IMG/VR virus record: IMGVR_UViG_3300025133_009608
Span: 124,001-188,000 of that record
DNA: 64,000 nucleotides
Origin: a virus
Direction: 5' to 3' (one strand)
Below are positions 12,469 through 37,670 of the stretch, in pieces. The notes under the pieces are model-generated. The model had not been told where the DNA came from, did not search any database, and saw nothing but the letters and a program-made list of their open reading frames with translations. Position numbers and translations under genes: made by a program. Numbering within the stretch: the first letter of the stretch is position 1; the number at the start of each line of letters is the position of its first letter.

Positions 12469-12663
12469 TTAAAAGATAAGGTTTGCTTTCTCTATCAGCC
12501 TTCTTGCATCTTCCGCTGATACAAATCCAAGAAGATCCTCCATTACGTCCTCGTCGCTTGTCATTTTTTCAGATACAGAGTCAATTATATCTGCCTCTTC
12601 GTGCATCTCAAGCTCGTCCAATCGGGTAGCCAAAGAGATGAGTTTTGATATATTTTTATTCAC
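12469..12663 (-). CDS. Small protein resembling the shared N-terminal module
   Basis: A 64-residue protein starting ISKLISLATRLDELEMHEEAD, a divergent form of the two-helix module at the N-terminus of many proteins between 20 and 38 kb. Here the module makes up nearly half the protein. It overlaps the upstream gene. Function unknown. Confidence 0.6.
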   Translation of the reverse strand: MNKNISKLISLATRLDELEMHEEADIIDSVSEKMTSDEDVMEDLLGFVSAEDARRLIEKANLIF

Positions 12664-12841
12664 CCTCCTCTCCTTCGATGACCTTTATTGGCTCCTCGGA
12701 GTCATCGACTGCCTTTTCCATATCATTTAAAAAAGCTGACAGCTCGCTATCAGAAAACTGATCCATATACATAAAGCCTTCATCGCTTTTCCATATTAAA
12801 TACTGATATCTTACATGCTCTCCTTTTTTTCTCTTAGTCAT
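12656..12841 (-). CDS. Hypothetical acidic protein
   Basis: About 61 residues starting MTKRKKGEHVRYQYLI. The start is chosen because GGAGG lies 5 nt upstream and the ATG overlaps the stop of the preceding gene. The C-terminal half is very acidic. Function unknown. Confidence 0.6.
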   Translation of the reverse strand: MTKRKKGEHVRYQYLIWKSDEGFMYMDQFSDSELSAFLNDMEKAVDDSEEPIKVIEGEEGE

Positions 12842-13037
12842 CATCTCCTCCGTTGTCAATGAATGGCAAAGCGCTATCTTCCCCTAAAGGCACCAGCCCG
12901 ATGGAGGTGGCTACCTCTTTGATTTCCGTATAAGCCTCAAGGATAAGCTCTCGATAGTGTGTTGATACCCACCCATCATTACGGGGAGAGGTGGCCTCCA
13001 TTCTCCAGTTTTTAATCTTTTTTCTTATGTCTTTCAT
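12834..13037 (-). CDS. Hypothetical protein
   Basis: A 67-residue protein with a basic N-terminus and acidic C-terminus; AAGGAGGG precedes the ATG. First gene of a small overlapping set downstream of the sigma factor gene. Function unknown. Confidence 0.6.
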   Translation of the reverse strand: MKDIRKKIKNWRMEATSPRNDGWVSTHYRELILEAYTEIKEVATSIGLVPLGEDSALPFIDNGGDDD

Positions 13038-13066
13038 GAGAAACCCTCCTTCTTAATAAGAAGTTA

Positions 13067-13918
13067 TTAGTAACTCCTGAAGTCTCTAATATCGAATTCT
13101 CGCCCTAGAGTTTTTCGAATACTGCCAAGCGCCCTGATCTCCATCTTTCTCGCCCACTCTCTAGAGATCTTTAAATCAGCTGCTAACTCCCGCAGTGTTT
13201 TTTTCTTATCCGAAAGGAATCGCTCTTTTACAATGTATCTCTCATCGTCGGGGAGTCGACTCAGAGCCGCCCCTATTGCTAGGGATAAGGCGACTTTTGA
13301 ACTCTCCTTCTCTACCTTGTCCTCCATTGTACCCTCATCAACCAGTAAGTCCTGCATTGTTGCGCCATTAGACTCATCTCCGATCGGAGTGCTAAGAGAT
13401 GTGTCATGTCCAGATAAGGCCTTTTGCATTTCCACAAGATCGGGGATCGAAACCCCCAGCAGATCGGCGATTCTAGTGGTTTTTTTATCCCCACACAATC
13501 CTTCTTTTTCCGCCTTTAGGCGTGCCTGGGTGATTCTAAAGAAAATGGCCCTAGAACTCCTGGTCGTTGCAAGGCGCACTATGCACTTTCGATCCATCAT
13601 GTGCCGCTTCATATAGGCGTTTGCCCACATCATTCCGTAGGACAAAAAGCTTGCGCCCTTATCTGGATCATAAGACTCCGCCGCCCGAAGCAAGCCAGCC
13701 ACCCCCTCTTGCATTAAATCTTCAAACGATGAGGCTACATTTTTTGAAGATAGCTTCCAAGCCTCCCTTGAAACTAATCTCATGTTTGAGAAAATTACAG
13801 CATCAAGAGCCTTTTTGTCTCCATCCGACTGCCAGATAGCTATAAGCTCCTTTTGCTTGTCATGAGGCATTGGGGGGTTTTCTGACAAAACCCTAGAAAG
13901 ATAAGATGAGTGTAGCAT
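13067..13918 (-). CDS. RNA polymerase sigma factor (sigma70 family, RpoH-like)
   Basis: About 283 residues, starting MLHSSYLSRVLSENPPM. Region 2 (NMRLVSREAWKL, EDLMQEGVAGLLRAAESYDP, ASFLSYGMMWANAYMKRHM) contains the core-binding and -10 recognition helices. Region 4 (TLRELAADLKISREWARKMEIRALGSIRKTL) is the -35 helix-turn-helix. The size and absence of region 1.1 fit heat-shock-type sigma factors. It could redirect host RNA polymerase to phage promoters. The frame is open to 13987, but that start overlaps the upstream gene. Confidence 0.92.
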   Translation of the reverse strand: MLHSSYLSRVLSENPPMPHDKQKELIAIWQSDGDKKALDAVIFSNMRLVSREAWKLSSKNVASSFEDLMQEGVAGLLRAAESYDPDKGASFLSYGMMWANAYMKRHMMDRKCIVRLATTRSSRAIFFRITQARLKAEKEGLCGDKKTTRIADLLGVSIPDLVEMQKALSGHDTSLSTPIGDESNGATMQDLLVDEGTMEDKVEKESSKVALSLAIGAALSRLPDDERYIVKERFLSDKKKTLRELAADLKISREWARKMEIRALGSIRKTLGREFDIRDFRSY

Positions 13919-13925
13919 GTTTTCT

Positions 13926-14129
13926 CTATTTAAATATGGAATTGTGGCGGGAGATGGAGACTGTAACTGTGTTATCAACCGATGCAATCACTTTTGTCCC
14001 AAAGGAATTAGCGGGGTAATTTTTCTCATAATCATCAATCCAAGATTTGATCTGATATCCAAAGCCTGTTATAGATGTAGTTGTTTTCTTTTTTGTCTTT
14101 TCAGTCCAATTTATCTTAAACATATCCAT
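13926..14129 (-). CDS. Hypothetical basic protein
   Basis: 67 residues starting MDMFKINWTEKTKKKTT; the ATG lies 3 nt after the stop of the upstream gene. Strand-rich C-terminus. Function unknown; start uncertain (an in-frame TTG lies upstream). Confidence 0.55.
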   Translation of the reverse strand: MDMFKINWTEKTKKKTTTSITGFGYQIKSWIDDYEKNYPANSFGTKVIASVDNTVTVSISRHNSIFK

Positions 14130-14134
14130 GATTG

Positions 14135-14470
14135 TCACGCGGGCCAAGTATGGTAATGATTATCATCATCAATTATTGTTAATTCGTTAACCCTTGAAAC
14201 TCTCCACCCCAAGGAGCTCCAAGACTTTGCCCGAGGATAGTAAGCAGAAATAATATTTATTATCTTTTTCTCTCTAGAGTCAGAGTACGCGGCCTTACCG
14301 CTATTCTTATCTGCTGGCCAACAAGCTTCTCTCGCAAGAAGGTTAGAGGGAAATACTCCAGACCCAGACAGGGTGAATGAATATCCGATATGACTTATTG
14401 TGTCAGGACGAATGTGATCGCCCACCTCATCTGATTCATAGTATGGAATTAAAGCGTCATTCGTTCCCAT
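14135..14470 (-). CDS. Hypothetical protein with DDxHxHT motif
   Basis: A 111-residue protein ending in IIDDDNHYHTWPA. The same DDxHxHT motif appears in the proteins at 25681-27180 and 27994-28623. HIGYSFTLSGSGVFPSNLLAREACWP is a distinctive conserved-looking segment. It overlaps the deaminase gene by 22 nt. Function unknown. Confidence 0.62.
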   Translation of the reverse strand: MGTNDALIPYYESDEVGDHIRPDTISHIGYSFTLSGSGVFPSNLLAREACWPADKNSGKAAYSDSREKKIINIISAYYPRAKSWSSLGWRVSRVNELTIIDDDNHYHTWPA

Positions 14471-14811: not shown

Positions 14812-14854
14812 CAGGCATTTGGCCGCTCCTGTTATGGTTGTGAATAAAGATTCT

Positions 14855-16586: not shown

Positions 16587-16593
16587 TTTGTGG

Positions 16594-19013: not shown

Positions 19014-19358
19014 ATGCAATCAAAGCTAATGGCCGCAATTAGCCTCATAGCGCTTGGAAACATAGTAACGTGGTTATGCTCCAATTCTCAGTTTATCTCT
19101 ACCTGGTGGAAAGCTAGGCCCATCTTGGCTATATCCGTGGCCTGCTTTCCTGCTTCCCTGTGCTTTTATTACGGATGGAAGTATGCAGTAGAGACAACTG
19201 GAGAGCTATGGGCAGCAAGATTTATTGGATTCGGAACAGCGACGATAGTGTTCGCGCTGATGACTCATTTTATAATGAACGAACAGATTACATCAAAAAC
19301 AGTATTGTGTCTTTTTCTTTCTGTAGTTATAATAATGATTCAAACACTGTGGAAATGA
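19014..19358 (+). CDS. Four-helix membrane protein (small DMT-like)
   Basis: A 114-residue plus-strand protein with four predicted membrane helices (about 6-24, 34-53, 65-86, 93-112). The layout, and the C-terminal helix preceded by NEQITSKT, resembles half-size DMT/EmrE-type phage membrane proteins. ATGGAGAC provides the ribosome-binding site. Converges on the SET gene. Transport function is not shown. Confidence 0.68.
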   Translation: MQSKLMAAISLIALGNIVTWLCSNSQFISTWWKARPILAISVACFPASLCFYYGWKYAVETTGELWAARFIGFGTATIVFALMTHFIMNEQITSKTVLCLFLSVVIIMIQTLWK

Positions 19359-19672
19359 CTATAACATGATAGCCAATAGGAGGCAGTTAGCTCACTTCCT
19401 TTTGGAATATTCTTTATTGCCCTTAACTTTATAAACCTTCCACATTTATATGCCTCACAGTTTGGCTCATCTGAATGATTAAAGAACCCCCCTAGGGGGG
19501 TTCTAATGAAACTGTCATCAAACTCGTCATCTCTTACATGTGTTATTCCGAACTCATGCCCTGAAAGTATGTCTACTTTTGCAAACAAGCCAAGCCCCTC
19601 TATTCCTGATGTTGAGATGGTTACCTCTGAGGGCAACGGCCTATATGTTTTTTTGTCGCCTACTATAGTCAT
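19340..19672 (-). CDS. SET-domain protein (lysine methyltransferase-like)
   Basis: A 110-residue minimal SET domain. IEGLGLFAKVDILSGHEF, GGFFNHSDEPNCEAY and LRAIKNIPKGSELTASYW correspond to the GxG, NHSxxPN and EEL-Y SET motifs that form the SAM-binding pseudoknot. Related viral and bacterial SET proteins methylate lysines of histones, ribosomal or other proteins. Overlaps the cupin gene by 32 nt. Confidence 0.85.
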   Translation of the reverse strand: MTIVGDKKTYRPLPSEVTISTSGIEGLGLFAKVDILSGHEFGITHVRDDEFDDSFIRTPLGGFFNHSDEPNCEAYKCGRFIKLRAIKNIPKGSELTASYWLSCYSHFHSV

Positions 19673-20036: not shown

Positions 20037-20426
20037 CTATGCCTCCTTCCACCAGACATAGCTTTTTCTGGTCTTTAGATAATCTGGGTTGTTTTCATGT
20101 TTGTACGCTTCAATTTCAAATGGAATTTGAAAATAAGCATCCATAGGATTCATTCCGCGAAAAAGATTTCTTACCCAAAAGAATGCGTACAGTACGGGGA
20201 ATCCAACGAACAGGAGTTCTATCCACTGCTGGTAATGAATTGTTTCATGGACTTTCATCTCTGGAGGTGCAGTCTCTCTGCAGAACACTAAGAATAGAAT
20301 ACTTATTGCGCTAATTTCTATTGGAGATATTTTAGATAGCAGCCTCGGAACGAAGCTATTTTCAATAAATATAGGCTTAAAGTCTTTTATCCTTCTTAGC
20401 GGCTCTTCTTCATTCTTGACTGTCAT
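20037..20426 (-). CDS. Membrane-associated HExxH protein
   Basis: A 129-residue protein. KVHETIHYQQWIELLFVGFPVLYAFFW places an HExxH-type motif (HETIH) before a membrane helix, and IPFEIEAYKHE supplies a third acidic ligand. The arrangement matches a bacterial/phage family of small membrane zincin-like proteins of unknown role. Overlaps the next gene by 17 nt. Confidence 0.7.
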   Translation of the reverse strand: MTVKNEEEPLRRIKDFKPIFIENSFVPRLLSKISPIEISAISILFLVFCRETAPPEMKVHETIHYQQWIELLFVGFPVLYAFFWVRNLFRGMNPMDAYFQIPFEIEAYKHENNPDYLKTRKSYVWWKEA

Positions 20427-20934
20427 AATCTTTTAGCTCTCTATTATGAAGCGCGGGCAGAACCTCAATTCGTTGAAATTCAATCATATTCATGTATTCC
20501 TCAAATTTAGTCGCCATCCACTTTAAAGGGTCCTCTATATCCTCTCCCTTTCGATCAATAGCCTCCGCTATTATTCCATCAACAATGGCGTAGCCAAGCT
20601 CACGGCTTATGCCGTTGTCTCCGGTAGCCATGTCTGCCCGCTCGAAAACTCCATCAAAGTACTCTACGATCTCAAGATCTGGTGACTGCCAAAGATCAGT
20701 GAGATCTTCATAGTTGCCCCACTCAGACATGAGGACGAAATTCTCAATAGCAAAATTCTTCCAGAATGCTTTTGACTCCTCTTCATTGGCATCCTCCGGG
20801 AGTCTATCACTGACGTCTTCCGAATACCCCTCTGAGCTTGCTACGTCCTCGATAACCCGGTCGAGAGTACTCGACTCTTCTACCAGACCTCTTTCGTCTA
20901 ATTCATTCGCTATCTTAATTAATTCTTTTAACAT
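20410..20934 (-). CDS. Tag-module protein
   Basis: A 174-residue protein. Residues 1-28 are the shared two-helix module (MLKELIKIANELDERGL, then EESSTLDRVI). The remainder is acidic and helical (KAFWKNFAIENFVLMSEWGNYEDLTDLW) without a recognised fold. Member of the N-terminal module set described in the findings. Confidence 0.72.
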   Translation of the reverse strand: MLKELIKIANELDERGLVEESSTLDRVIEDVASSEGYSEDVSDRLPEDANEEESKAFWKNFAIENFVLMSEWGNYEDLTDLWQSPDLEIVEYFDGVFERADMATGDNGISRELGYAIVDGIIAEAIDRKGEDIEDPLKWMATKFEEYMNMIEFQRIEVLPALHNRELKDYDSQE

Positions 20935-20940
20935 TTAAAA

Positions 20941-22134
20941 CTATGCCTCACCAAAATAAAGGTTATTACCATACCCTGTATGACCTGCCGGGAGAGAGTC
21001 CTCAAAAACAAACCCCATTCCTTCCAGTTTGTCTATAACCTTATCCCTCATTCCAGCGCCAAAGTCACCATTGGCATATATGTGCAAAAGAGCGGTGCCA
21101 TCAGTAATCGAGGTAGCCTTAACGTCGATCTCGCTGCCATAATGTTTAATCATTGATTTAACTTGATACTCAATACTGCGGGCTTCCGCAGCCATGTCAT
21201 TTGATTTTGATTGAAAAATACTTGCATTTCGACGGCTCTCAAAGTATCCTGCGGCGCTTACCCCGCCCTCCGTTGGAGGCTCTGATGACTCGGCTTCTAA
21301 AATCAACTCATTCAAAGCGTTGTACAAATACTCAATAACCTCGCTTTTGTTCGAGGCATTTTTATAATTAGATTCACGGTAAGAAAAAATCTCTAAGAAG
21401 CTATTTATTGACTGAGCAACACTGTCCCTCCTTCTCTCAGGAGACTCGTCACCGCCGTAGCGCCAAGGGCCATTCTTTGCGTTCTCGAGTTCGGCCACTA
21501 CAGAATTTTCTGTATTATTAAAATCTATCTCTACCCTTCCTTGCTCGTCTAGTGCGGCCTCTCCCTCTGCATCATGAACAAGCCAGTCTCCCCAATCACC
21601 GTACCGTATAGCGGCTTTTTTTAATAATTCCATATCTGAAGCAATATTATCCAAATCATCAGCCTCTTTAACGAGGCCTCTTTCGTCTAATTCATTTGCT
21701 ATCTTAATTAATTCTTTAATCATATTATATCCTTTCCTGTCAAATAAGCTTAGTTGCCTTTCTCCGTAATCCATATTACTCCGAAACGGAGAGGGGGCAA
21801 TAGATGGCCCTTCGCTTGTAATCAACTGAGTCACGGACCGCTCAGGTGGGGATGATAGCCCCTTCCACTCATTAAAATATCTCAAATACTCTCTTGGGTA
21901 ATCTCTTAATCGCCTATTTACATTTTGCATCTGTATCGCGGGAGTTAGCCTTGGGTCAATTTGACCCAAAGAAACAAGCTTTCTCTTTAGCCATACCCGA
22001 AAGACCTGAGGGAATTTTATCTTAGCAGATCCGGATGCAGTCAGAAGAAGAACAGTGGAGGCCTCAGGGAACAGTCCCTTGCCCTCCAAGTTCGTCGCCA
22101 ACGCCCGCAGGGATTTCAAAATATTATCGCGCAT
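20941..22134 (-). CDS. Double tag-module protein (probable in-frame fusion)
   Basis: A 397-residue frame. It begins with a divergent module (ILKSLRALATNLEGKGLF); residue 138 starts a second, canonical module (MIKELIKIANELDERGL), preceded by its own ribosome-binding site AGGAAAGGATATAAT at 21723. So either two proteins are made from one frame, or two adjacent tag genes fused. The C-terminal part (DWLVHDAEGEAALDEQGRVEIDF; HYGSEIDVKATSITDGTALLHIYANGDFG) is unrecognised. Confidence 0.7.
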   Translation of the reverse strand: MRDNILKSLRALATNLEGKGLFPEASTVLLLTASGSAKIKFPQVFRVWLKRKLVSLGQIDPRLTPAIQMQNVNRRLRDYPREYLRYFNEWKGLSSPPERSVTQLITSEGPSIAPSPFRSNMDYGERQLSLFDRKGYNMIKELIKIANELDERGLVKEADDLDNIASDMELLKKAAIRYGDWGDWLVHDAEGEAALDEQGRVEIDFNNTENSVVAELENAKNGPWRYGGDESPERRRDSVAQSINSFLEIFSYRESNYKNASNKSEVIEYLYNALNELILEAESSEPPTEGGVSAAGYFESRRNASIFQSKSNDMAAEARSIEYQVKSMIKHYGSEIDVKATSITDGTALLHIYANGDFGAGMRDKVIDKLEGMGFVFEDSLPAGHTGYGNNLYFGEA

Positions 22135-22200
22135 AGTTTAACCAAATTAACTCAACCAAGTCCTAATTATTCATAGAAGATTTATTGGTTTTTGTTTTTG

Positions 22201-25688: not shown

Positions 25689-27180
25689 CTAACAGCTCCT
25701 CGTGCGAAATGCTCCACTCATTTCGATGCTCCATTTTAATATCATTAATTATAGCGGTCGAGACTTTCACCTCGCCTTCTTCCTCCGGGTTTCCGGATAT
25801 TATATCTTCCGGTTTATACTTTAACTTAAGGATGGCCTCCTCGGAATCCGTAAGTCCTGAGTAATAATCAACCACAAACTCCTCTGAGGTTCCAATATAG
25901 ACCCCGTTCGGGTGTGAAATCATATTATCATTCCTGCCACCACTGTATGGGTATCGTATCTCGGGATTCTGCAAGGAGAATAATCCACGCTTATCCCTTC
26001 CGACTATCTTATACCCAGTTAGAAAACTATCCTTATATCTCTCCCTTCTTTCGCGAGTGACGTCATAAGAGTCTTTAGCGGCAGATAATAGCTGCTCGTC
26101 TGTAATGCCCTCCTTTAAATATCCATTTGAATATCCATAACTTTTAGCTAAGTGCCTTAACCTTAGCGCAAGCCCAGTGGCTCCACTATCATGAGCGTCT
26201 TCATATAAATAGCTCCTACCTCTATGCTCCGATTGCCCCATAAGGTATTCAAAGTGCATCTTTGAAAATTCTAACATTAATTCATTCAAGTCTCTGGATT
26301 GATGCTGGTGTTCCACATCAGAGCCTCCCGTGTTGCTCTCCCCTTGAAATCCCACTTCTGCCATCATGCTTCCAAGCTCTTCTTCTGCCTCTGCATATTC
26401 AACATCCAACGCCTCTGCGTTTGGCGAGCCGTCCTCGTAAGCATCCATTGATAGTTGATTTAGTTCTTCGAGCCTATGGATTCTACTTCTGATGTCTGCT
26501 GAGAGTCCGAATAAGTTGTATAAACTTTCGGGAGTATCCGCCCTAGACTCGTCCCCATACTCAAGAGATGCCGCCCTCCATAGTGCTGCCACCTTTAGCT
26601 CTCTGCGGTGCGGTCGGCACAATACCTTTTTCTGCTCCACGGTATGATGATGATTATCATCACCAAATGCACTAACACCAGAGGGTTCCGAAATAATCTT
26701 AATTGATTGATTTTCATTAAAACAATGAGATGATAGCTTCATAAAATACTTTATTGAAGCTTCTCTGTTGCTTTTGTCTTGAGGGTCATATGATATCCAT
26801 AGCGAATCAAACTCTGGGCCACTAGATGCTTCTTTGTCCGCTTCTTCCATCGACTCGGGAGTGTTCCTTAGGACCGCCTCCGCTTCATCTAATTCTATAA
26901 TCTTTGGGCCAATTAGATTTACGTCCCCGTCCCAAGTAACTTCCTCTACGAAGCCTTTGCTTGGGACTGTATCCGTTCGAAACATTACAGCTACGATGTC
27001 ATCGCTATCTATATGGGTATGTTGCACTTGCGGAAGATAAACCCCCCAGACTCCGGACACTGCAAAGTTAGAGTACCCACGCTCAACGGACAGCCTTCTT
27101 TCCGATACAATCTTCTTTGCAATTTCTCTATCAGCAAAGTGAATAAAGAAATCATTTTCTACTTTCTTTTCTACTCTCAC
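25681..27180 (-). CDS. Large protein with ADP-ribosyltransferase-like features
   Basis: A 499-residue protein. N-terminal part: FIHFADREIAKKIVSERRLSV, VWGVYLPQV, VMFRTDTVPSK, EEVTWDG. C-terminal part: GYKIVGRDKRG, NGVYIGTSEEFVVDYYSG, LKLKYKPEDIISG. Both resemble the strand order of ART-fold enzymes (H-x-T-like start, later Y/S strand, final E-x-E-like turn). The resemblance is weak. The middle contains SAFGDDNHHHTVEQ, the DDxHxHT motif. Function unassigned. Confidence 0.6.
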   Translation of the reverse strand: MRVEKKVENDFFIHFADREIAKKIVSERRLSVERGYSNFAVSGVWGVYLPQVQHTHIDSDDIVAVMFRTDTVPSKGFVEEVTWDGDVNLIGPKIIELDEAEAVLRNTPESMEEADKEASSGPEFDSLWISYDPQDKSNREASIKYFMKLSSHCFNENQSIKIISEPSGVSAFGDDNHHHTVEQKKVLCRPHRRELKVAALWRAASLEYGDESRADTPESLYNLFGLSADIRSRIHRLEELNQLSMDAYEDGSPNAEALDVEYAEAEEELGSMMAEVGFQGESNTGGSDVEHQHQSRDLNELMLEFSKMHFEYLMGQSEHRGRSYLYEDAHDSGATGLALRLRHLAKSYGYSNGYLKEGITDEQLLSAAKDSYDVTRERRERYKDSFLTGYKIVGRDKRGLFSLQNPEIRYPYSGGRNDNMISHPNGVYIGTSEEFVVDYYSGLTDSEEAILKLKYKPEDIISGNPEEEGEVKVSTAIINDIKMEHRNEWSISHEELLDE

Positions 27181-27342: not shown

Positions 27343-27585
27343 TTAGCGCCTCTGAAGATCGGTTACGGTCATTACTCCCCAGTTATAATCGCTTCGAACG
27401 GAACCCTCCAGCCCCAACTCTTCCAGGGCGGCAAAAACCTCTCTCTGCATATCAATCGATTTACCTGTTATTACCTCGAACGGCAAAGCCCAATCGTTCT
27501 TCAAGAGAAACGACTCTATAGCCTTATAGACATCGCAGTGACGAACCCCGTGAAGATCTACGGAAGATGGCCTACCATTCCCCAT
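27343..27585 (-). CDS. Smr-domain protein
   Basis: An 80-residue protein. VDLHGVRHCDVYKAIESFL, FEVITGKS and a final NWGVMTV reproduce the Smr (MutS2 C-terminal) domain, which binds or nicks branched DNA or cleaves mRNA at stalled ribosomes. Ribosome rescue is an attractive link to the phage tmRNA (inference). Overlaps the tag gene upstream by 14 nt. Confidence 0.82.
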   Translation of the reverse strand: MGNGRPSSVDLHGVRHCDVYKAIESFLLKNDWALPFEVITGKSIDMQREVFAALEELGLEGSVRSDYNWGVMTVTDLQRR

Positions 27586-27982
27586 AGATCCTATTATCAG
27601 ATCCTTCTATTGGCATCCCATGATCCCAAGCGGCATGTGGAATATCCGCTCCGAGTCTTTCATTGTGCCTTTCGTTATCCTCCGGGGTGACAATCCAGCA
27701 GTTTAATGTGTTATCCACACCCATAGCATGATAGATGACCAGCCCATCTTCTTTCTCGGCCTTTATCTCGACCAGCTCTCCGAGAGCATCACGGCTATCT
27801 TTATTAATTTTATTGAAGAACTTTTCTACGGCGCTTCGTATCTCCGGGGACATTTCTTTTTCTCTTTTAAAGAAGTCGAACATACCAGCGCAATTTATAA
27901 TGATATTATCTATTTCATTTGCACCAGACTCAAGTCCCAGCTTATCTAGCTCATTTGCCAACCTAATTAGCTTGTCTAACAT
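27572..27982 (-). CDS. Tag-module protein
   Basis: A 136-residue protein. The N-terminal module MLDKLIRLANELDKLGL (then GANEIDNII) is a moderately diverged copy. The body (FFKREKEMSPEIRSAVEKFF; LVEIKAEKEDGLVIYHAMG) is unrecognised. Confidence 0.7.
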   Translation of the reverse strand: MLDKLIRLANELDKLGLESGANEIDNIIINCAGMFDFFKREKEMSPEIRSAVEKFFNKINKDSRDALGELVEIKAEKEDGLVIYHAMGVDNTLNCWIVTPEDNERHNERLGADIPHAAWDHGMPIEGSDNRIYGEW

Positions 27983-27993: not shown

Positions 27994-28623
27994 CTAGGAG
28001 ATTTCATCCATTATTTGCTCAACGACAGTATCGATATCCATATCTTTATCCCCTGTCTCTACGTCATCAGTCAGAGCGGCAGTAATCAGGTCAGAAAAAT
28101 AACTTGTTGCATCATACTCCTCAAACTGCTGAGGATCAGTGGCTCCGTTATCAAATACAAAGTTGAGCCGGTCACCATCCAAATAGATTACCTCTTCTTT
28201 CCCGTCCCACAAGTCCCATGGAGTCTCGGTTCTAGCGTGCCAAAACAAGCTCTCAATTAGCTCCGAAGCCTCAGGGCCAGCGCCAAGCTCTATTACTGCA
28301 TTCTTTTTTCTTTCTTCCAATGTAATTGACTCTTCATCATCTGGGCTATGCGGTTCTTCTTCGGTTCCCGCCATGATCTTTGCCGTTGCGATAGCATCCT
28401 CCTTATCTCCTGTGTGATAATGGTCATCGGTTCCAATTGAATCCGGAGGAATAACGCGGTACTCTTTCCATTCGGCGTTATAATAAACTTCCGCGCCTCC
28501 CACTGACAATACAAGGTCTTGAGAGTCGGACGCAAGCCTGACAACTCGGTCCAAAGCATCAGCCTCTTTTACAAGACCTCTTCCGTCCAATGTGTTTGCA
28601 ATTTTAATTAGTTCTTTTATCAT
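27994..28623 (-). CDS. Tag-module protein with DDxHxHT motif
   Basis: A 209-residue protein. The N-terminal module is MIKELIKIANTLDGRGL, KEADALDRVV. VYYNAEWKEYRVIPPD and IGTDDHYHTGDKEDAIATAK follow; the latter contains the DDxHxHT motif. The acidic C-terminal half has no known fold. Confidence 0.72.
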   Translation of the reverse strand: MIKELIKIANTLDGRGLVKEADALDRVVRLASDSQDLVLSVGGAEVYYNAEWKEYRVIPPDSIGTDDHYHTGDKEDAIATAKIMAGTEEEPHSPDDEESITLEERKKNAVIELGAGPEASELIESLFWHARTETPWDLWDGKEEVIYLDGDRLNFVFDNGATDPQQFEEYDATSYFSDLITAALTDDVETGDKDMDIDTVVEQIMDEIS

Positions 28624-29353: not shown

Positions 29354-29908
29354 TTAGCTGCCTCTTCGGGCAAGGTTCTCGATAATTTCATCGAGAATGT
29401 CAGCCTCTTTCGTTAAAGACTTTTGATCCAGCTCTGTGGCGATTTTTGATAGCCCCGTCAAAACAACAGAGGCTTGCGCGATAGGGTTATAAGCAGGAGT
29501 TAACCGAGCCAGGTCATCTCTCTCATCAGAGAGTCCCCATGCTGGGTGAGTGACATCATCTTTTGGCGCGAAATCTTGGTCACTTCGAGATACTGTTTCG
29601 GCTCCAACGCCAAGGTATATATCAAACATAGTAGATAGTTGATCCTCCATGCCTTGAAGCTTTTCCTTCCCGATAGATATCATATGATCCAATATCTCAA
29701 AGGGATCCTCTTCGTGCTCGCGGGCTTCAGCCTCGGCTTCTTCGAGCGAACTTTTCAAGGATTTAACTCCGCTCTGAAGCCCGGTAACAAGCTCCTGAAA
29801 GTCGGCCATATCAATAATCTTAGAGAACTCCATATCCCCTTCGATTACGGTGTCCTCGTCTGTTATCGCTTCTCTGTTGTCTTCGATTTCTATTTTTTCA
29901 TTTGACAT
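29354..29908 (-). CDS. Acidic protein with a C-terminal copy of the tag module
   Basis: A 184-residue protein with a very acidic N-terminal half and coiled-coil centre. The C-terminus carries LSKIATELDQKSLTKEADIL followed by DEIIENL, the same module found at other N-termini. The only member with a C-terminal copy, so position is not strictly N-terminal. Confidence 0.7.
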   Translation of the reverse strand: MSNEKIEIEDNREAITDEDTVIEGDMEFSKIIDMADFQELVTGLQSGVKSLKSSLEEAEAEAREHEEDPFEILDHMISIGKEKLQGMEDQLSTMFDIYLGVGAETVSRSDQDFAPKDDVTHPAWGLSDERDDLARLTPAYNPIAQASVVLTGLSKIATELDQKSLTKEADILDEIIENLARRGS

Positions 29909-30784
29909 CTTTCGTCTTTCCTAAAAATACTTTTGGTTTCTGCCCGTACTTTGTACATTGACTATCAATTTATTAGTAGCTTTGTTTTTCGGGAATTTTT
30001 TATTTTTATTTATTTTTAATATTCAGAAATCTCGGCTTGATTTGTTCTGTTGTCTTTGGTTGGTTTTCTTTCGTTATAAAAACCCACGGACCCCGAAGTT
30101 CTATAAAATATAATCCCATACCATATAGCGGGCCAGACTTTATATTTATACGAAAGAGCCGGAGGCTCTTTTATTATAAACTTATCTTATTTGGCCCACC
30201 ATGTAACCTCTGGGGGCTTGGGCTCTTTGGAATCCGTGGGCTCCTAGTTTATTATCTTTTTAAACCCCTCATCATACAGTCCGGCTTTTTCCGGTGAGCT
30301 CTGACGACAAAATTTTAAGCGAGCAGAAAAATTTATATAAAAAACTTTAAAAAAAAATTATAGGAAATTTTTAGGGGGTGCCGTTCTTATATAAAAAACA
30401 TAAAAAATTGAGCAAATTGGGCAACCACCCTACGTGCTTTATCTGCTTTTTCCCAGAAAACCCCAAAAAAAACTGCCGCGAAATAAGCTTCTCTGCGCCC
30501 CAGAAAAAAGACCTCCTCGCTCTCAGAAAAAAGACCTTCTCTCTCTCAGGAATAAAAAGACTCCCCTGTGGGAATAAAGGCCTCTCTACCCCCTATGGAT
30601 TTATTATCTTTATTCTTCTTTATGTTCTCTACCCTATAAGGATAAAAAGAATCCAAAGGACTATGGATAGCTTTTCTTTTATTGTATTCTCCTATAGAGG
30701 TATTGGGCTGGGGGTTATCCTTTTTATTATCCTATTCAACAACTGGGATAATTTATTTATTTATTGTGGGGTCGCTGGATTATA
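29909..30784. other. Long intergenic region with short tandem repeats
   Basis: 876 bp without a supportable gene; open frames on the plus strand are low-complexity. It holds a hairpin AAAGAGCC/GGCTCTTT with a T-run (about 30152-30175). A run of about three imperfect 24-bp units (CAGAAAAAAGACCTYCTC type) spans roughly 30490-30575, and A/T blocks lie around 30330-30375. Possibly a promoter/terminator zone or origin-like region. Confidence 0.5.
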
Positions 30785-31123
30785 TTATCGTTCAAAATTT
30801 CTCAGATCAATTAGATCTTGCTGCCTCTCCCCCTCCCAATACTCGCGCTCCTCGTAGCCTGACAGGTTCTCGACGTAATCGTAATATGCCTCTTCATAAA
30901 TATCTTTGATTCTTGCCATCGATTGAGCTATCCTGATCATATCGTCGGGGTCCCTAGCCTCTTTCATTTCTTTTGTTAATTCCTTTAGACGAGCTGCTGG
31001 GTCCATGCGCTCGTCTTCTTCTTTCTCTGTCGCCTTCTTTATAATAGAATCTAGATAGTCTGCTTCTTTCGAAAGACCCTTGCTATCTAAGTGAGTTGCT
31101 AATTTTATTAATTCTTTAATCAT
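30785..31123 (-). CDS. Tag-module protein
   Basis: A 112-residue protein: canonical module MIKELIKLATHLDSKGL, KEADYLDSIIKK, then a charged helical body (ERMDPAARLKELTKEMKEA; MARIKDIYEEAYYDY). Small and almost entirely helical; function unknown. Confidence 0.72.
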   Translation of the reverse strand: MIKELIKLATHLDSKGLSKEADYLDSIIKKATEKEEDERMDPAARLKELTKEMKEARDPDDMIRIAQSMARIKDIYEEAYYDYVENLSGYEEREYWEGERQQDLIDLRNFER

Positions 31124-31143: not shown

Positions 31144-31623
31144 CTAACAGCTTTTAATATGTCCCGACACGATATTCTCCCTGGATATCCGCCCATCATT
31201 GTCCAGCTCCCAAGTTAGCTCAACACTAAGCATCCCGGTATCTCCCGTGTCCATATGCATTGCATCTCGTAGGAATTCATAATTCTTACATTTCCATGAT
31301 AGTATAATTTGGTTTCCTTCTTCGCTCTTCTCTGCACATGAGTGATTATTAACATCGCCGTTGCACACCGGATTCACATCTATGGCGGCACCAGAATCAT
31401 CATAAATAAATTCAAAATCTATTTCGCCATTTGTCTCCGAAGATAGATCATCTTTAGATACCGGCTTACACCCAGAGGCTCCTGTTGCGGCAACAGCAAA
31501 ACATAGTGCGATCATAATCGGGGCTATTGCCTCCTTCTTTATAATAGAATCTAGATAGTCCGCCTCTTTCACAAGGCCTCTGCTGTCCAATTCGTTTGCT
31601 AATTTTATTAATTCTTTAATCAT
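31144..31623 (-). CDS. Tag-module protein followed by a lipobox-like segment
   Basis: A 159-residue protein from MIKELIKLANELDSRGL. After KEADYLDSIIKKEA comes a hydrophobic stretch, PIMIALCFAVAATGASGC, that ends in a lipobox-like ASGC. If the tag is cleaved near KKEA, the remainder would start like a lipoprotein precursor. The rest has four cysteines. The frame is open upstream to 31653, but SD position favours 31623. Confidence 0.7.
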   Translation of the reverse strand: MIKELIKLANELDSRGLVKEADYLDSIIKKEAIAPIMIALCFAVAATGASGCKPVSKDDLSSETNGEIDFEFIYDDSGAAIDVNPVCNGDVNNHSCAEKSEEGNQIILSWKCKNYEFLRDAMHMDTGDTGMLSVELTWELDNDGRISRENIVSGHIKSC

Positions 31624-31662
31624 TGTTCCATTTTCCTTAAGAATACATTTCAACGTTGAATA

Positions 31663-32247
31663 TTAATAGTTAAAACTTGCTCTATCAAACTTCCCTGAGA
31701 ATAGAACTTCTTTGTTTTCTTCTATCTTGTCGTCGGGCCATTCCCACCATTTTAATTTAAGTAGAAACTCAATGTCTTCATCGCTAAATCTTTTCCTTAT
31801 TTGCTTGGCCGGGTTCCCTCCGACGATAGCATATGGCTCCACATCTTTTACGACGTTTGCATTGGCAGCAATGACCGCTCCATCCCCGATGGTTACTCCC
31901 GACATTACAGTTGCTCCAAACCCAATCCACACATCGTTTCCGATTGTAATGTCACCATTTGATATGATTCCCGGCTCTTCTATATCATAGTGAAGGTATG
32001 TTGATGTACGTTCGGCGATATGATTTCCGCCCAAGAAAAATATGCAGTTGGTTGCTATCGAGCAATAGTCTCCAATTATTAATCGTGCATCTTCTTTTGC
32101 ATTCGGTGTCGTTTCCCATAAGAAGACTTTAGAGCTTGGGACAAAAGAGGATGTTGAGATCGTGGTTCTGGGTCCCAGAATTACTTTCGCCTCTCCTCCG
32201 AGAGTTTTGTTTATCTCTCTGTAGTTAGCTAAATCATAAATTATCAT
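31663..32247 (-). CDS. Hexapeptide-repeat acyltransferase (XAT/Vat-like)
   Basis: A 194-residue left-handed beta-helix protein. IIGDYCSIATNCIFFLGGNH, ITIGNDVWIGFGATVMSGVTIGDGAVIAANANVVKDV and YAIVGGNPAKQIRKRF carry the hexapeptide repeats and the conserved C-terminal motif of acetyltransferases acting on sugars or antibiotics. Together with the GlmU-like and cupin genes it suggests sugar or surface modification. Confidence 0.88.
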   Translation of the reverse strand: MIIYDLANYREINKTLGGEAKVILGPRTTISTSSFVPSSKVFLWETTPNAKEDARLIIGDYCSIATNCIFFLGGNHIAERTSTYLHYDIEEPGIISNGDITIGNDVWIGFGATVMSGVTIGDGAVIAANANVVKDVEPYAIVGGNPAKQIRKRFSDEDIEFLLKLKWWEWPDDKIEENKEVLFSGKFDRASFNY

Positions 32248-32258: not shown

Positions 32259-32624
32259 TTAAATTACTTGCATCTCTGGAGTATTCATTTCAGCCGAGTG
32301 ACCATCCAGCGGCGAATCCAATGAGAGCTCAACTATATCAAATGAGGCGCCGTGCGGCTGGCCTTCCGAGGCGGTATCTTCCGCCCAAGTTTCTTTGTAT
32401 TCTTCTTTTACTGATTCATTGTTCCAAGATTTATAATTACTAATAGCCTCTTCCGCTTTGGCTCTAGAGCTATATGCCCCCTCCACTCCCGTGGTGCTAA
32501 AGCTATCCTCTCCCAAGCTTCTATGTGCTGCGACAACAACATAAATTAAATTATTACTTTGTGCTTCTTTTATAAGATTACTATAATTTCTATCTGATGC
32601 TATCTTTATTAATTCCTTAATCAT
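32259..32624 (-). CDS. Short-module protein (DUF7336-like pattern)
   Basis: A 121-residue protein beginning MIKELIKIASDRNYSNLIKEA, a shortened variant of the module that keeps the first helix and uses an ADRNY-type link. It is followed by LIYVVVAAHRSLGED, VEGAYSSRAKAEEAISNY, a pattern of small phage proteins of unknown function. Confidence 0.68.
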   Translation of the reverse strand: MIKELIKIASDRNYSNLIKEAQSNNLIYVVVAAHRSLGEDSFSTTGVEGAYSSRAKAEEAISNYKSWNNESVKEEYKETWAEDTASEGQPHGASFDIVELSLDSPLDGHSAEMNTPEMQVI

Positions 32625-32683: not shown

Positions 32684-33166
32684 TTATCGCTCATAATTCT
32701 GCATAAAAAATTCGTCTTGATGGTCGCCCTCTCCCATCTCAGCAACATACTCTTCAGCGGTCTGCTTCTCGCGATTATCAAGATCGTGGGGGGCGTTACG
32801 GCCCTCTTCATCTCGGAATCTCTCCATCATATTCACCATATTAGTCAAAAACTCTTTGCCCGCGCCTTCAACAGAGTAGCTGCGATCGACTAGACTTTTA
32901 AGAGTTCTTTGATGCTCTCCTGAGTTTCTCAGAACATAGGTCAAATCCTCTTGTGATAGGCCCGGAACCAGATCTCCCAAGATATTAGCCAGAGCACCTT
33001 CAAATTGCTCAATATAATTATCGCCAGTATTTCTTGTCAGAGTGTGAATGGTTTCGTTATCAACACCCAGAGAAGCCCGCTTAATAACCGTATCCAAATA
33101 GTCTGCTTCTTTTGCCAAGCCTCTTTCATCCAGATGAGTAGCTAATTTTATTAATTCTTTAATCAT
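32684..33166 (-). CDS. Tag-module protein
   Basis: A 160-residue protein. The canonical module MIKELIKLATHLDERGL, KEADYLDTVIKR precedes an acidic helical body (EQFEGALANILGDLVPGLSQEDL; MVNMMERFRDEEGRN). GGAGAGTGCAA precedes the ATG, which overlaps the gene above. Confidence 0.72.
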   Translation of the reverse strand: MIKELIKLATHLDERGLAKEADYLDTVIKRASLGVDNETIHTLTRNTGDNYIEQFEGALANILGDLVPGLSQEDLTYVLRNSGEHQRTLKSLVDRSYSVEGAGKEFLTNMVNMMERFRDEEGRNAPHDLDNREKQTAEEYVAEMGEGDHQDEFFMQNYER

Positions 33167-33788
33167 TTGCACTCTCCATCTCTTCTAATTCTTCATCTCG
33201 CATGTTCTTATAAAGATTAAACTGATCCAGAGCGGTGGCGGTTAACGCCTTTGCTACATTCTTTTCGATAAAATACCTATAGTAATCATTTCCCCTAGCC
33301 ATGCGCGAATGGATTTCATGTGCCATCTCATTGACAAAACTTTTTAATCCTTCTTCTGCGAATTGAGCCTGACTGTGAGCTCGATCATCAGAGTTCCAGC
33401 GCCTTTCTTCATTCTCTTCCCGGGACCCATGCTCCTCAAATAGGAAGCTTATAACGCCACTCATAGAGTGCGCGCCCACTTGCGCGGGTGCGGTGTTATA
33501 CACCACGTCCCCATCCGGCCCTGACTTATCGTCAAATAGAACTATATTAAACCCGACGCTATCATCATATCGAAGCTCCGCTGCCGGAGTTATCTCATAT
33601 TTAAATAAATCCGCTCCATCGAGTTCACTTCCATTATAAATAATCTTTTCATCGGTTGATTCCACCAGGGTCAGGGAGCCTATTCTCTCTGGCCATGTGG
33701 TGTCTTTCGACTCTGCAATTTTATTTAAATTATAATTATTGATACTCGCTATCCTCTTGAGATTGCTTCTTTGTGATATCTTTTTCAT
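33159..33788 (-). CDS. Hypothetical protein with variant N-terminus
   Basis: About 209 residues from MKKISQRSNLKRIASINNYN; AGGGAG precedes the ATG. The first 30 residues repeat the K-I-A/ADRNY-like elements without the full module. The body has beta and helical parts, including VNEMAHEIHSRMA (HExxH-like but not followed by known zincin context). Upstream leader resembles that of the 31144 gene. Confidence 0.65.
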   Translation of the reverse strand: MKKISQRSNLKRIASINNYNLNKIAESKDTTWPERIGSLTLVESTDEKIIYNGSELDGADLFKYEITPAAELRYDDSVGFNIVLFDDKSGPDGDVVYNTAPAQVGAHSMSGVISFLFEEHGSREENEERRWNSDDRAHSQAQFAEEGLKSFVNEMAHEIHSRMARGNDYYRYFIEKNVAKALTATALDQFNLYKNMRDEELEEMESAND

Positions 33789-33841
33789 TTTACAACTCTC
33801 CCTATAAATACATTTCAATGTTGATTATTAATAGTTTATTT

Positions 33842-34147
33842 TTAAAATAAAAAATCCAAATGGAACAGTAATTTTCCGGCGATTTCTTTCGGGCAATTAT
33901 CTAATATATAATCTGATGATACTTGCTTATAGAATATTTCTTTATGATTGTCGGTGACCGGGGATATGGTGCCGGTCAAAGACCTTCCGGATGGAACTAC
34001 CGATACAATAGTCTTAACTCTCCACTGTGGGCCGAGGGCGTTTATATTTAAAACAAACTCTGTACCCTTAAGTATAAACTCTCCTCTTTCAAGCGAAATG
34101 GGAGAGAATAATCCGGTCTTAAAAACTTTTGAAGATAATGGGGACAT
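33842..34147 (-). CDS. Hypothetical protein
   Basis: A 101-residue beta-rich protein (ISLERGEFILKGTEFVLNI, WRVKTIVSVV, GTISPV) ending LLFHLDFLF. The protein at 48047-48331 ends in a similar LLFHLDFF, hinting at distant relation. Function unknown. Confidence 0.62.
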   Translation of the reverse strand: MSPLSSKVFKTGLFSPISLERGEFILKGTEFVLNINALGPQWRVKTIVSVVPSGRSLTGTISPVTDNHKEIFYKQVSSDYILDNCPKEIAGKLLFHLDFLF

Positions 34148-34156
34148 TATTAAATA

Positions 34157-34351
34157 CTAAAGATTTATTCCCAAAATCTTCTTAACCTTGTCAAGAAGGC
34201 CTATTATCTTTTCGCTGGCTTTGATATTTAATTCTATAAGCTTGCGAACGCAGTAGCCAAGGCCCGATAAAAAAAGCAGCACCACCATAAGGACCATTGC
34301 AATTAAAAAAGATATAATATTTAATACCTTTCCCATGACTATCTGGAACAT
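34157..34351 (-). CDS. Small membrane protein
   Basis: A 64-residue protein: hydrophobic helix (IISFLIAMVLMVVLLFLSGL), then an amphipathic basic C-terminus. It follows the M15 peptidase gene directly (1-nt overlap), so it may act with it, for example as a holin-like protein (inference). Confidence 0.62.
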   Translation of the reverse strand: MFQIVMGKVLNIISFLIAMVLMVVLLFLSGLGYCVRKLIELNIKASEKIIGLLDKVKKILGINL

Positions 34352-35238
34352 TAAACGATCGCCGTTGTTGAAGTTCCGGAATCCAAAAACGCAAGACCTT
34401 CTTGGCTTACCGATTCAATCTTCATGTGCACGTGCGGGCGAGCATCACCCGTTTCATCTCCAACTCTTCCGGAAATTAATCCGCGACTTACAGCCTCTCT
34501 TGCGACCGCAAGGGCTCCGGGGGTATTTCTAAGATCAAATGCAATACCGCGGGCGTGATTTGACATAGGGTGAGAAGTCAGCCTTCTCTCTGCGCAGCTT
34601 AGTGATTCGGCATCTGTTGCCATCTCAAAGCAGTCTGCTACAGCGTTTGCGTTATCAGGCTGAGAACTATACAATCTTACTAGATAATCTCTGCCTCTTT
34701 GCGCATCTCCGTTGCCGTTACTTTTATAATTGTTATACATCGCACGCGCCTGCCTGCCTGGGCCTCTAAATCCGGACGTCATAACCAGCGGTGGATGCCC
34801 CATCTCTTCTGCTAACAGCGCTAGAATATCTGCCGCCTTCTTTGCATCTGAGTCTAGGCCGCTATAATCAACTCCATCTTTTATTTCTATAATTGATTCT
34901 CCGGAATAATTTCTTGGACTGACCCTCTGGCGTCTCACCCAAGGAGATGTCGCCTCTGGAGGAACATATCTTCCGCGAACAGAGCTCGCTCCTCCGGCCC
35001 AAGGAGATGTCGCCTCTGGGGGAACATATCTTTGAGTATTGCCCGGCCGAGAGGCGGGAGTAGAGCTTGCATACTGAGAGGATGCTGGACCTTGGCGGTC
35101 CGTCCCATAGAATAGCTCATCTGAGTGCTGCTGTAATATATCTTGAAACCCAACGGCAAGTTTTGTTATCTCGTCAGACTCACTTTGGAGTCCTAGGTCT
35201 TTTAGTTTTTTTGCCAATAATTTTATTTTATCATTCAT
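34351..35238 (-). CDS. M15-type peptidase/endolysin-like protein with tag module
   Basis: 295 residues from MNDKIKLLAKKLKDLGL, a divergent tag. A Pro/Ser-rich linker contains RYVPPEATSPW twice. The C-terminal domain has MTSGFRGPGRQARAMYN, SNHARGIAFDLR (H...D zinc ligands) and RPHVHMKIES (HxH), the pattern of M15 D,D-/L,D-carboxypeptidases used as phage lysins. A lysis or entry role is likely. Upstream in-frame starts up to 35265 are possible. Confidence 0.8.
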   Translation of the reverse strand: MNDKIKLLAKKLKDLGLQSESDEITKLAVGFQDILQQHSDELFYGTDRQGPASSQYASSTPASRPGNTQRYVPPEATSPWAGGASSVRGRYVPPEATSPWVRRQRVSPRNYSGESIIEIKDGVDYSGLDSDAKKAADILALLAEEMGHPPLVMTSGFRGPGRQARAMYNNYKSNGNGDAQRGRDYLVRLYSSQPDNANAVADCFEMATDAESLSCAERRLTSHPMSNHARGIAFDLRNTPGALAVAREAVSRGLISGRVGDETGDARPHVHMKIESVSQEGLAFLDSGTSTTAIV

Positions 35239-35379
35239 TTTATACCCATGCGCGCGTACATACATTAAGATTTAATATTAGTAATCATAACTTTTTAGTT
35301 ATACTTAAATTATATAAAAATAGCTATACATGTCGATAGATGGATATATTTATATAATTTATCTCACCCCTTGTTCTGG

Positions 35380-35730
35380 CTATTTCTCAAGCATATCATC
35401 TTCATAATCAAGCCATATGGAGCCATAATTAAAAAAATCACTCCATGCCGTATAGTCGCCCTCATAAGCCAAGAGCCCAGACGATGAAGTCAGATCATAA
35501 AAATTACTTCCAGAATCATGTGTTAGCGGAAATAATATAGACCCACCTGGCGCGCTGTGAGCGCCAGGCTGGCTGGGATGAGTTGGGTTATTATTCTGAA
35601 GAAACTCATCTATATCGCTCTTCTCAACATCGGCAAGGATTAATTTATCTGTCGCAATACTAAAAAGTGAGTATTTATTATCATCAGTTTTTACAAAGTA
35701 AAATTTTGTCTCCGCAAATAAGTCGAGCAT
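35380..35730 (-). CDS. Hypothetical protein
   Basis: A 116-residue protein with strand-rich N-terminus (KFYFVKTDDNKYSLFSIATD) and acidic, aromatic C-terminus. No tag module. First minus-strand gene after a 680-bp divergent intergenic region. Function unknown. Confidence 0.65.
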   Translation of the reverse strand: MLDLFAETKFYFVKTDDNKYSLFSIATDKLILADVEKSDIDEFLQNNNPTHPSQPGAHSAPGGSILFPLTHDSGSNFYDLTSSSGLLAYEGDYTAWSDFFNYGSIWLDYEDDMLEK

Positions 35731-36336: not shown

Positions 36337-36360
36337 ATAAATAAGATCGATTTATTATAG
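36337..36360 (+). promoter_or_regulatory. Phage promoter (main class), plus strand
   Basis: AAGATCGATTTATTATAG in plus orientation, 54 nt before the ATG of the 36415 gene. Its orientation flips together with the gene, strong support that this repeated element is a promoter. Confidence 0.82.
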
Positions 36361-36414
36361 TAAAGTGTAAGGGGAAAGGCCTCTTGCGCCCTACTCACAA
36401 CCAAGGAAAATAAA

Positions 36415-36849
36415 ATGAGTATTTCACTATTCAATGATCAGAAGGATGTCTCCTCTGTTCAGACCATTCGCGAGACGATGAACGTCTCGCTCAGCGACGA
36501 TGGGACCCCCATCGTTTCGTTTGCCACAAATCGCGGCAAGGGATCTGGGGCTCAGTCTATGGCTGTCGCTGATTACGCCGAGTATGTCGCGGCTCTTAGT
36601 CACTTTGCTTCTAACGGAATTGAAGAGATTCCAACTGAAGACCTCTCTCCTGCGGAGACTGTCCGTCAGACTATCGCCCTTGATGACTCTGGAGTGATCT
36701 CATTCCGAGTGAAGAGCGGGAAGGGCTCAAAGCCAGCTAAGGTTGGCGCCGGAGAGTTCTCTGAAGTTACCGATCTTCTTCGCTCTACCCTTGAGGCGGT
36801 TGAAGCGGCTGCTGCCCGCCTCACTGGAAGTGACACTGAAGAAGAGTAG
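36415..36849 (+). CDS. Internally duplicated small phage protein, paralogue 1
   Basis: A 144-residue protein. Two similar halves: IRETMNVSLSDDGTPIVSFA...GKGSGAQ...helix (about 19-66), and VRQTIALDDSGVISFRVKSGKG...helix (about 78-125). Each half has an R-x-T, SF and GKG pattern giving a beta-hairpin plus helix, somewhat reminiscent of PC4/Whirly-type nucleic-acid binding folds (inference). It has its own promoter and terminator. Paralogues at 47544 and 51950. Confidence 0.85.
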   Translation: MSISLFNDQKDVSSVQTIRETMNVSLSDDGTPIVSFATNRGKGSGAQSMAVADYAEYVAALSHFASNGIEEIPTEDLSPAETVRQTIALDDSGVISFRVKSGKGSKPAKVGAGEFSEVTDLLRSTLEAVEAAAARLTGSDTEEE

Positions 36850-36870
36850 TAACTACTCTCAATAAAGCTA

Positions 36871-36908
36871 AGGCTCCACTGGTTTAATCCCCGGTGGAGC
36901 CTTTCTTT
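36871..36908 (+). terminator. Rho-independent terminator
   Basis: AGGCTCCACTGG/CCGGTGGAGCCT stem with a TTTCTTT tail, directly after the paralogue 1 gene on the plus strand. Confidence 0.88.
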
Positions 36909-37006
36909 GCTTAAGATGTCAAACTTTTGCCCAAGTGATCGATCTTTTCATAATAAATCCTCCTTGTTGCGATAGGTGCGATTGGCATGTCTTTTATTTA
37001 TTTTAC

Positions 37007-37213
37007 CTATATCTTCTTAAGCCCTTCGACCTCGCCTTCAAGCTCGAAAATTGAGACGTATGGTGTATTGCGTTCAATGGCCTGATCCCTTGCAGCTTTA
37101 AGTATAGCAAGCGCACTATCAAGAGCTGCATTCCAAGCGGCAGATTCCTTCGCGGAGCAATCCTCACTGCTCTTCCTCAGTCTATAATTTCTATCTGCCG
37201 CAATCTTTCTCAT
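37007..37213 (-). CDS. Short protein with ADRNY-type N-terminus
   Basis: 68 residues starting MRKIAADRNYRLRKSSEDCS, with GGAGG 7 nt before the ATG. KIAADRNY also follows the tag in the neighbouring 37293 gene. The rest is one or two helices (WNAALDSALAILKAARDQAI). Probably a shuffled relative of the tag proteins. Confidence 0.65.
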   Translation of the reverse strand: MRKIAADRNYRLRKSSEDCSAKESAAWNAALDSALAILKAARDQAIERNTPYVSIFELEGEVEGLKKI

Positions 37214-37292
37214 AACAAATCCTCCGAGATTTAACACTTCTATCTTACAGATGCCCTATTGAGCAATCCCAATGCCGGCCAAGATTGAGAAG

Positions 37293-37670
37293 TTACTCAA
37301 TAGACAGATCGTCATATTCAGTCTGTCCGCCAAGATGTTGCTCCCGCCGCCTCTTTTGATTTTCGGACAGCGCTCGAACAATCTCAATCGATATATTTCG
37401 AATTGTCTCAGAGATTGTTGGATCAACATTAAGATGACCGCTGTTCTGTAAATGGCCAATCCAATGGGCTACATTGTCAACATCTTCCTCAAATCCTGCC
37501 ATATCCAGTTCTAAGCTGTAGCCCTTAGAGTTCGACCCTAATTCGTCCATAGCGTATTTATAATTTCTATCTGCCGCAATCTTTTTAATCACAGAGTCCA
37601 AATAGTCCGCTTCTTTTGCCAAGCCTCGCTCATCTAGATGAGTCGCTAGCTTAATCAGTTCTTTAATCAT
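37293..37670 (-). CDS. Tag-module protein
   Basis: A 125-residue protein: canonical module MIKELIKLATHLDERGL, KEADYLDSVIKK, then IAADRNYKYAMDELGSNSKG. The body is helical and acidic. GGAGG precedes the start. Last (rightmost) member of the module series. Confidence 0.72.
   Translation of the reverse strand: MIKELIKLATHLDERGLAKEADYLDSVIKKIAADRNYKYAMDELGSNSKGYSLELDMAGFEEDVDNVAHWIGHLQNSGHLNVDPTISETIRNISIEIVRALSENQKRRREQHLGGQTEYDDLSIE

Follow-up and report, generated by a model that had tools for sequence, protein, structure and literature searches.

A two-helix module shared by otherwise unrelated proteins of a jumbo phage lineage, with a possible role in virion incorporation

A stretch of viral DNA of 64,000 nucleotides (hereafter the window; bases 124001–188000 of the 316,664-base IMG/VR virus record IMGVR_UViG_3300025133_009608) encodes a series of proteins that share one short two-helix element, the module, joined to remaining parts, or bodies, that are unlike one another. 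Here we describe this module as a real and lineage-wide feature. We consider it likely, with a probability of roughly 0.6, that it is a portable docking hairpin for incorporation of its bearers into the virion, most likely by way of the prohead core. Positions are those of the window unless given as record positions, and open reading frames (ORFs) were called mechanically, without a trained gene finder.

Judged by its genes, the source record encodes a jumbo myophage. The major head protein gene (record 34009–35082; phrog_2522, E=2.5e-73) is accompanied by a 1108-residue protein that includes a head-maturation-protease domain (record ORF 39998–43321; phrog_18299, E=1.5e-11), a portal (record 48142–49845), a large terminase (record 49849–51630), a tail sheath (record 2181–5414) and a baseplate wedge protein. 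Bacillus phage G has the nearest capsid protein (51% identity), with Tunturiibacter phage Tunturi_5, Virus Rctr197k and an uncultured 485-kb phage next in order.

A hairpin conserved as protein on unrelated bodies

The module spans about 30–35 residues, with the consensus MIKELIKLANxLD-xxG-LxKEADxLDxIIKK, and forms two amphipathic helices. AlphaFold2, given an alignment (A3) of 40 natural copies and no altered ones, places these helices at residues 2–14 and 18–35 with a mean predicted local distance difference test (pLDDT) score of 89.9, such that a two-helix hairpin is confidently predicted. Alignment A2 consists of 43 natural copies and two others, L044 and L040, to which an artificial initial methionine was added. 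Neither Pfam nor PHROGs gave a significant match over the module positions in the proteins scanned.

A search profile was built from eight window copies, and the E-values of all window copies refer to it. Every copy in the window lies on the minus strand. Those at the N-termini of ORFs 37293–37670 (37581..37670, E=1.1e-20), 32684–33166 (33077..33166, E=1.9e-20), 31144–31623 (31534..31623, E=2.4e-20), 30785–31123 (31034..31123, E=3.9e-20), 27994–28623 (28537..28623, E=2.5e-18), 20410–20934 (20848..20934, E=3e-18) and 27572–27982 (27896..27982, E=2.3e-16) bear out the nearly identical N-termini that a sequence-only reading of the window had reported at these seven starts, with E-values between 1e-20 and 2e-16, except that the last is more divergent than was claimed, LESGANEID taking the place of KEADYLD. 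That list was also incomplete, as it overlooked two strong copies: one inside ORF 20941–22134 (21640..21723, E=9.1e-18), and the other C-terminal in ORF 29354–29908 (29378..29455, E=1.8e-8). Among the proteins it had listed as divergent copies, the one starting at 12663 holds up (ORF 12469–12663; 12565..12651, E=7.9e-7), those at 22134 and 35238 do not (E about 1–2; ORF 34351..35265 has a degenerate N-terminal hairpin that is not significant alone, E=2.3), and in the one at 25688 the profile matches nothing. The shortened form at 32624 (ORF 32259–32624; 32562..32624) does keep the first 12 residues, followed by an ASDRNY motif, at marginal significance (E=0.011). Further copies are spread over the record (195764, 114229, 113814, 53386 and 59244), and a wider module profile finds 16 copies in all.

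The bodies are as unrelated as had been claimed: among the 15 module proteins of the record, none has a body similar to that of another, and about 150 module proteins fall into 117 unrelated body families. The module itself appears to be conserved at the protein level and to be old, because eight copies of the record are a mere 56–84% identical in nucleotides and most codon differences between the closest copies are synonymous (18 synonymous to 5 non-synonymous between the copies at 37670 and record 195764, and 12 to 4 in a second close pair). The same figures tell against a very improbable alternative, in which the module has no targeting function and the 5′ end of a gene, prone to recombination and comprising promoter, ribosome-binding site and initial codons, simply spreads as DNA. 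This would fit the clustering of the copies, with module genes as neighbours on one strand; the C-terminal copies, however, have no start signals to spread.

A profile search of other phages, as the sequence-only reading had proposed, found the module in 12 further records, so that 13 records, the source record included, hold 1–24 copies each (for example, 24 in 223 kb, 14 in 121 kb and 12 in 371 kb). Six of the module-bearing records have in common, over most of its length, a capsid protein of 45–87% identity. Phage G, Tunturi_5, Rctr197k and the 485-kb phage, despite their related capsid proteins, have no copy detectable with the module profile. Likewise, a pattern-based scan of limited sensitivity confirmed no relative of the module among 84,980 bacterial and archaeal species, and one 32-residue copy had no match at E 10 among 50,697 phage records. 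The head-operon families represented by record ORFs 45864–46757, 59247–59870, 59804–61363 and 53677–54690 had no match in the same 50,697 records.

Position within proteins and the question of cleavage

The 119 distinct copies comprise 79 N-terminal, 13 C-terminal and 27 internal ones; 10 of the internal copies have a methionine at or beside the module start and 17 have none there, and some proteins contain two or three modules. The C-terminal and tandem copies truly break a rule of N-terminal placement. Some internal copies, on the other hand, may be N-terminal to a second product. All seven copies for which the upstream DNA was read are preceded by an in-frame Shine–Dalgarno-like sequence, compared with 16% (173/1083) of the ATG codons inside the record's long ORFs, although five of the seven belong to one family (with an HExxH-like stretch conserved in most homologues) and are hence not independent, a dependence among related copies that applies to the permutation tests below as well. 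These seven copies probably head nested gene products, and the window copy at 21723, whose methionine follows the in-frame ribosome-binding site gacaggaaaggatataatATG, is a probable nested start. Such an arrangement is reminiscent of the nested genes C and Nu3 of phage lambda. T4 gp21 has a second start as well, a comparable arrangement (PMC9026906).

The position of the copies bears directly on the proposal, made from the sequence alone, that a cleavage site follows IKK. Under this explanation the module would be a propeptide like the capsid-targeting sequence (CTS) of T4, cut after IKK by the head protease to free the mature cargo. The phage encodes a head-maturation-protease domain, N-terminal copies are the majority (79/119), and the module ends in a common run, (S/A)-(I/V)-I-K-K-A-(A/S). 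This basic run equally fits the end of a helix, however, and beyond IIKK-A-(A/S) no residue is fixed, so that there is no conserved cleavage residue of the kind found in the motif of SPN3US gp245. The 13 C-terminal copies, the 17 internal copies without methionine and the proteins with two or three modules argue further against such a site, and we regard obligatory propeptide removal as unlikely; it is possible, though not indicated, that the head protease removes some N-terminal copies. We also considered that an SPN3US-type motif might be cut within KEAD, and dropped this reading, as the residues required vary among copies.

What the module shares with the T4 system is its distribution. The internal proteins of T-even phages have diverse bodies in which the CTS alone is conserved (PMC3012670), and the CTS of IPI–III and Alt is, like the module, one short element on diverse proteins of a single phage (PMC3012670, PMC9026906). 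In the source record this likeness extends to 16 copies on 15 unlike bodies and to an encoded prohead protease. The T4 CTS puts its bearers into the head, and by analogy the module would be expected to do so too; it may work like the CTS, but is unrelated to the T4 sequence. The T4 CTS is a strictly N-terminal propeptide of 10–19 residues, 10 of which are enough, and is removed by gp21 (PMC9026906), whereas the module is a folded hairpin of 30–35 residues, occurs also in C-terminal, internal and tandem positions, and has no recognisable cleavage motif. Another parallel is SPN3US, a jumbo phage that packs numerous proteins into its head and ejects them; N-terminal propeptides on some of these have been proposed to direct them to the prohead (PMC7411985, PMC10052503). 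These propeptides are 20–254 residues long and are cut at a defined motif.

In size and layout the module resembles the C-terminal helix-turn-helix of the P22 scaffolding protein, an element of about 36 residues (268–303) on which capsid assembly depends (PMC9962691). Both have two helices in about 35 residues; no homology between them is claimed. The P22 element occurs on one protein, whereas the module occurs on more than 100 body families and mostly at the N-terminus. We class the module neither as a CTS nor as a member of the P22 type, because it lacks the exclusively N-terminal placement of the former and its binding to coat is hypothetical.

Links to head genes, candidate late promoters and cargo-like bodies

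Several observations connect the module with head genes. In five genomes (G000, G003, G004, G009, which has two such genes, and, weakly, G010), module genes lie between homologues of record ORFs 53677–54690 and 51652–52272, just upstream of the large terminase. Beside the conserved head-region protein of record 59804–61363 lies a family recognised by the motif DQHGIF (‘DQHGIFQHF’), whose members in relatives carry one to three modules; in the source record it is the neighbouring gene (record 58534–59262), and not the DQHGIF protein, that begins with the module. An AlphaFold model of a multi-module DQHGIF protein reached a pLDDT of 53 and was left unused. A peptidase-like protein with a module also shares an extra segment with the DQHGIF family, AHED-SS-YKL-P...NL-EEEA-IV (L031:9104-10096, L019:4917-5972), which suggests that more pieces than the hairpin have been shuffled.

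Hairpins of the same kind appear in one further head-operon family and, more weakly, in another. The family of record ORF 45864–46757, located between portal and protease, has an internal hairpin to which the module profile aligns (hhalign E=1e-5), with a segment score of 28 compared with a maximum of 15.9 in column permutations (0/200 reach the score), and three homologues (L094:12612, L096:16880 and L142:19252) are recognised by the module profile unaided. Between the protease and major capsid genes lies an acidic 168-residue protein (record 39491–39994), scaffold-like by its gene position, which has a hairpin-like C-terminal tail in all seven family members (e.g. LSKIAADLDASGDDFSADMVRVTLSRIK). 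A tail-only comparison with the module gave E=9e-4 (0/200 permutations) and is suggestive of a true hairpin of the module type; the scaffold-like protein would then close much as does the P22 scaffold with its C-terminal element.

Some genes of the module clusters also have an upstream sequence like that of virion genes. The word CTATTAATA and its close variants, mostly 41–72 nt before the start, precede several genes of the module clusters and also the gene of the tail sheath, a baseplate-like gene, the gene of record 61374–61850 in the head operon and the large gene of record 277497–282047. Candidate late-promoter elements of this form lie upstream of module gene 31144–31623 (31661..31669, minus strand) and of ORF 33159–33788, which is followed by module gene 32684–33166 (33826..33834, minus strand). 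When a matrix was trained on four sites of this word from the virion region (those of the sheath gene, the baseplate-like gene, the head-operon gene and one large gene of the tail region), it identified elements of ≥9 bits before 8 of 37 module-cluster genes (shuffled-matrix mean 0.68, with 0/200 reaching 8). None of 37 early-region genes had such an element, and 4 of 65 virion-region genes outside the training set did (1/200 shuffles). Among these late-type elements, again on the minus strand, are TCTATGAATAATT upstream of ORF 20941–22134 (22165..22177; 12.0 bits), TATATTAATAATC upstream of module gene 37293–37670 (37726..37738; 10.6 bits) and GCTACTAATAAAT upstream of ORF 29354–29908, which has the C-terminal module (29968..29980; 9.6 bits). 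In relatives, the word with a Shine–Dalgarno sequence and ATG 30–80 nt downstream occurs eight times, compared with 0.32 for shuffled words; five of these sites precede orthologues of 61374–61850 and three precede module-cluster genes with degenerate-hairpin-like N-termini. The module genes would thus appear to be expressed late, and a phage sigma-70 factor with regions 2 and 4 (13067–13918) is a candidate reader of the element.

Two other classes of promoter-like element are found elsewhere. More than 30 near-identical intergenic copies of ATAAATAAGATCGATTYATTATAG, likely early promoters, occupy 36338–63815 (record 160338–191795), mostly just upstream of small ORFs, and TTTTGATATAAATAATCTCGATTTATTAT precedes other genes (window 3581, 18956, 46930 and 47303; record 103077, 109452, 116795 and 122423). 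The main module cluster (record 144–159 kb) and the head and tail regions yielded neither class. Three close paralogues (MSISLFNDQK...; 36415–36849, 47544–47954 and 51950–52438) each adjoin an early-type element.

As for the bodies, Pfam identifies an SLT transglycosylase in a protein with a degenerate hairpin (record 196629–197924) and, in others, GDSL lipase with PG_binding_1, LysM with Hydrolase_2 (two proteins), PilZ, and EF-hand with a zinc ribbon, together with poly(A) polymerase, methyltransferase and cupin. Peptidoglycan-active bodies appear prominent among these assignments, as would be expected of entry proteins. The body of ORF 27994–28623 matches phrog_7884, of unknown function (1.1e-8). 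A label of ‘PcfJ-like’ given earlier to the 929-residue protein of ORF 22899–25688 has no support in Pfam, where no family matches at E up to 1, and was dropped. Readings made by eye of ORF 34351..35265 as an M15-type peptidase, of ORF 25681–27180 as an ADP-ribosyltransferase, and of several bodies as kinase or M15 had no Pfam match, and the latter two were dropped.

Taken with these cargo-like bodies, the gene position, the hairpins in head-operon proteins and the virion-gene element lend partial, indirect support to the packaging or ejection role that had been suggested from the sequence. We envisage that module-bearing proteins would be made late, alongside head and tail proteins, that the hairpin would bind a partner in head assembly (scaffold or core, the protease-scaffold protein, or coat), that its bearer would thereby be caught inside the assembling particle, and that some cargo would probably be delivered into the next host. 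Certain observations weigh against this. The scaffold-tail match is weak when whole families are compared (E=0.029); bodies such as the poly(A)-polymerase/CCA-type enzyme, cupin and methyltransferase are atypical of virion cargo; and module genes were part of the pool from which the promoter motif first emerged, the gene classes having been chosen after the motif had been seen, for which reason the cross-genome promoter result weighs most.

The enzyme bodies would suit a different explanation, that the module is a tag for an intracellular compartment or complex independent of the virion, such as a replication compartment or a membrane or lysis complex. For the many cell-wall-acting bodies a use in lysis is also conceivable, and in ORF 31144–31623 the module is followed, as read from the translation, by a hydrophobic stretch ending in the lipobox-like GASGC. 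Since the main module cluster shows the virion-gene element and neither early-type element, and since placement in the head operon is conserved, we judge such a tag to be about as improbable as propeptide removal. Alternatively, the hairpin could serve self-assembly (dimerisation or polymerisation), the module proteins binding one another with no head partner. Multi-module proteins exist, and in the PDB the module profile has a single notable match, to a PPR-type helical repeat protein (E=0.017), whose fold stacks. This match seems to point to the hairpin type only: PPR/TPR-type repeats are helix-turn-helix hairpins of similar length, but they form arrays, whereas the module occurs as single isolated hairpins at protein ends and is virus-restricted at the sensitivity used. 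Dimerisation alone would not account for a dozen unlike bodies in each genome under late-type promoters, and if co-assembly were its purpose this version would merge with the docking explanation; on its own it seems to us slightly less probable again.

The docking explanation can also be extended, more tentatively, to a lineage-wide head sorting code, in which core or scaffold and conserved head proteins share a hairpin class with a dozen or more changing cargo proteins per phage. Gaining a hairpin, whether N-terminal, C-terminal or nested, would then suffice for passage in the virion, and removal of the tag would not be obligatory. If docking is correct, the hairpin profile would offer a sequence rule for predicting particle-borne proteins of uncultivated giant phages, covering over a hundred families that are mostly of unknown function and possibly enriched in proteins of host entry, takeover or counter-defence. 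It would also carry the concept of T4 capsid targeting over to an unrelated lineage, in which the tag is folded and works at either protein end, and provide a portable loading tag for capsid engineering.

Other features of the phage and its relatives

Two further recurrent motifs were observed. One, KIA(A/S)(D/K)RNY, is N-terminal on other small proteins and once stands right behind the module (window 32259–32624, 37007–37213 and 37293–37670; record 53385–53690; L015:13131, L016:7888 and L018:9953). The other, seen by eye at C-termini and resembling (M/I)AK..S.EF....G.V.R (L081:8218, L083:8341, L097:9524 and L022:1247), is possibly another sorting or cleavage signal. The window also encodes a tmRNA (11597–11999) with the tag ANNNNHFYAAALAA and a small SET-domain protein (19340–19672; Pfam E=1.9e-9), unusual for a phage, and two proteins of the record (64671–66338 and 117003–118451) have N-termini that, by eye, are like those of GroEL-type chaperonins.

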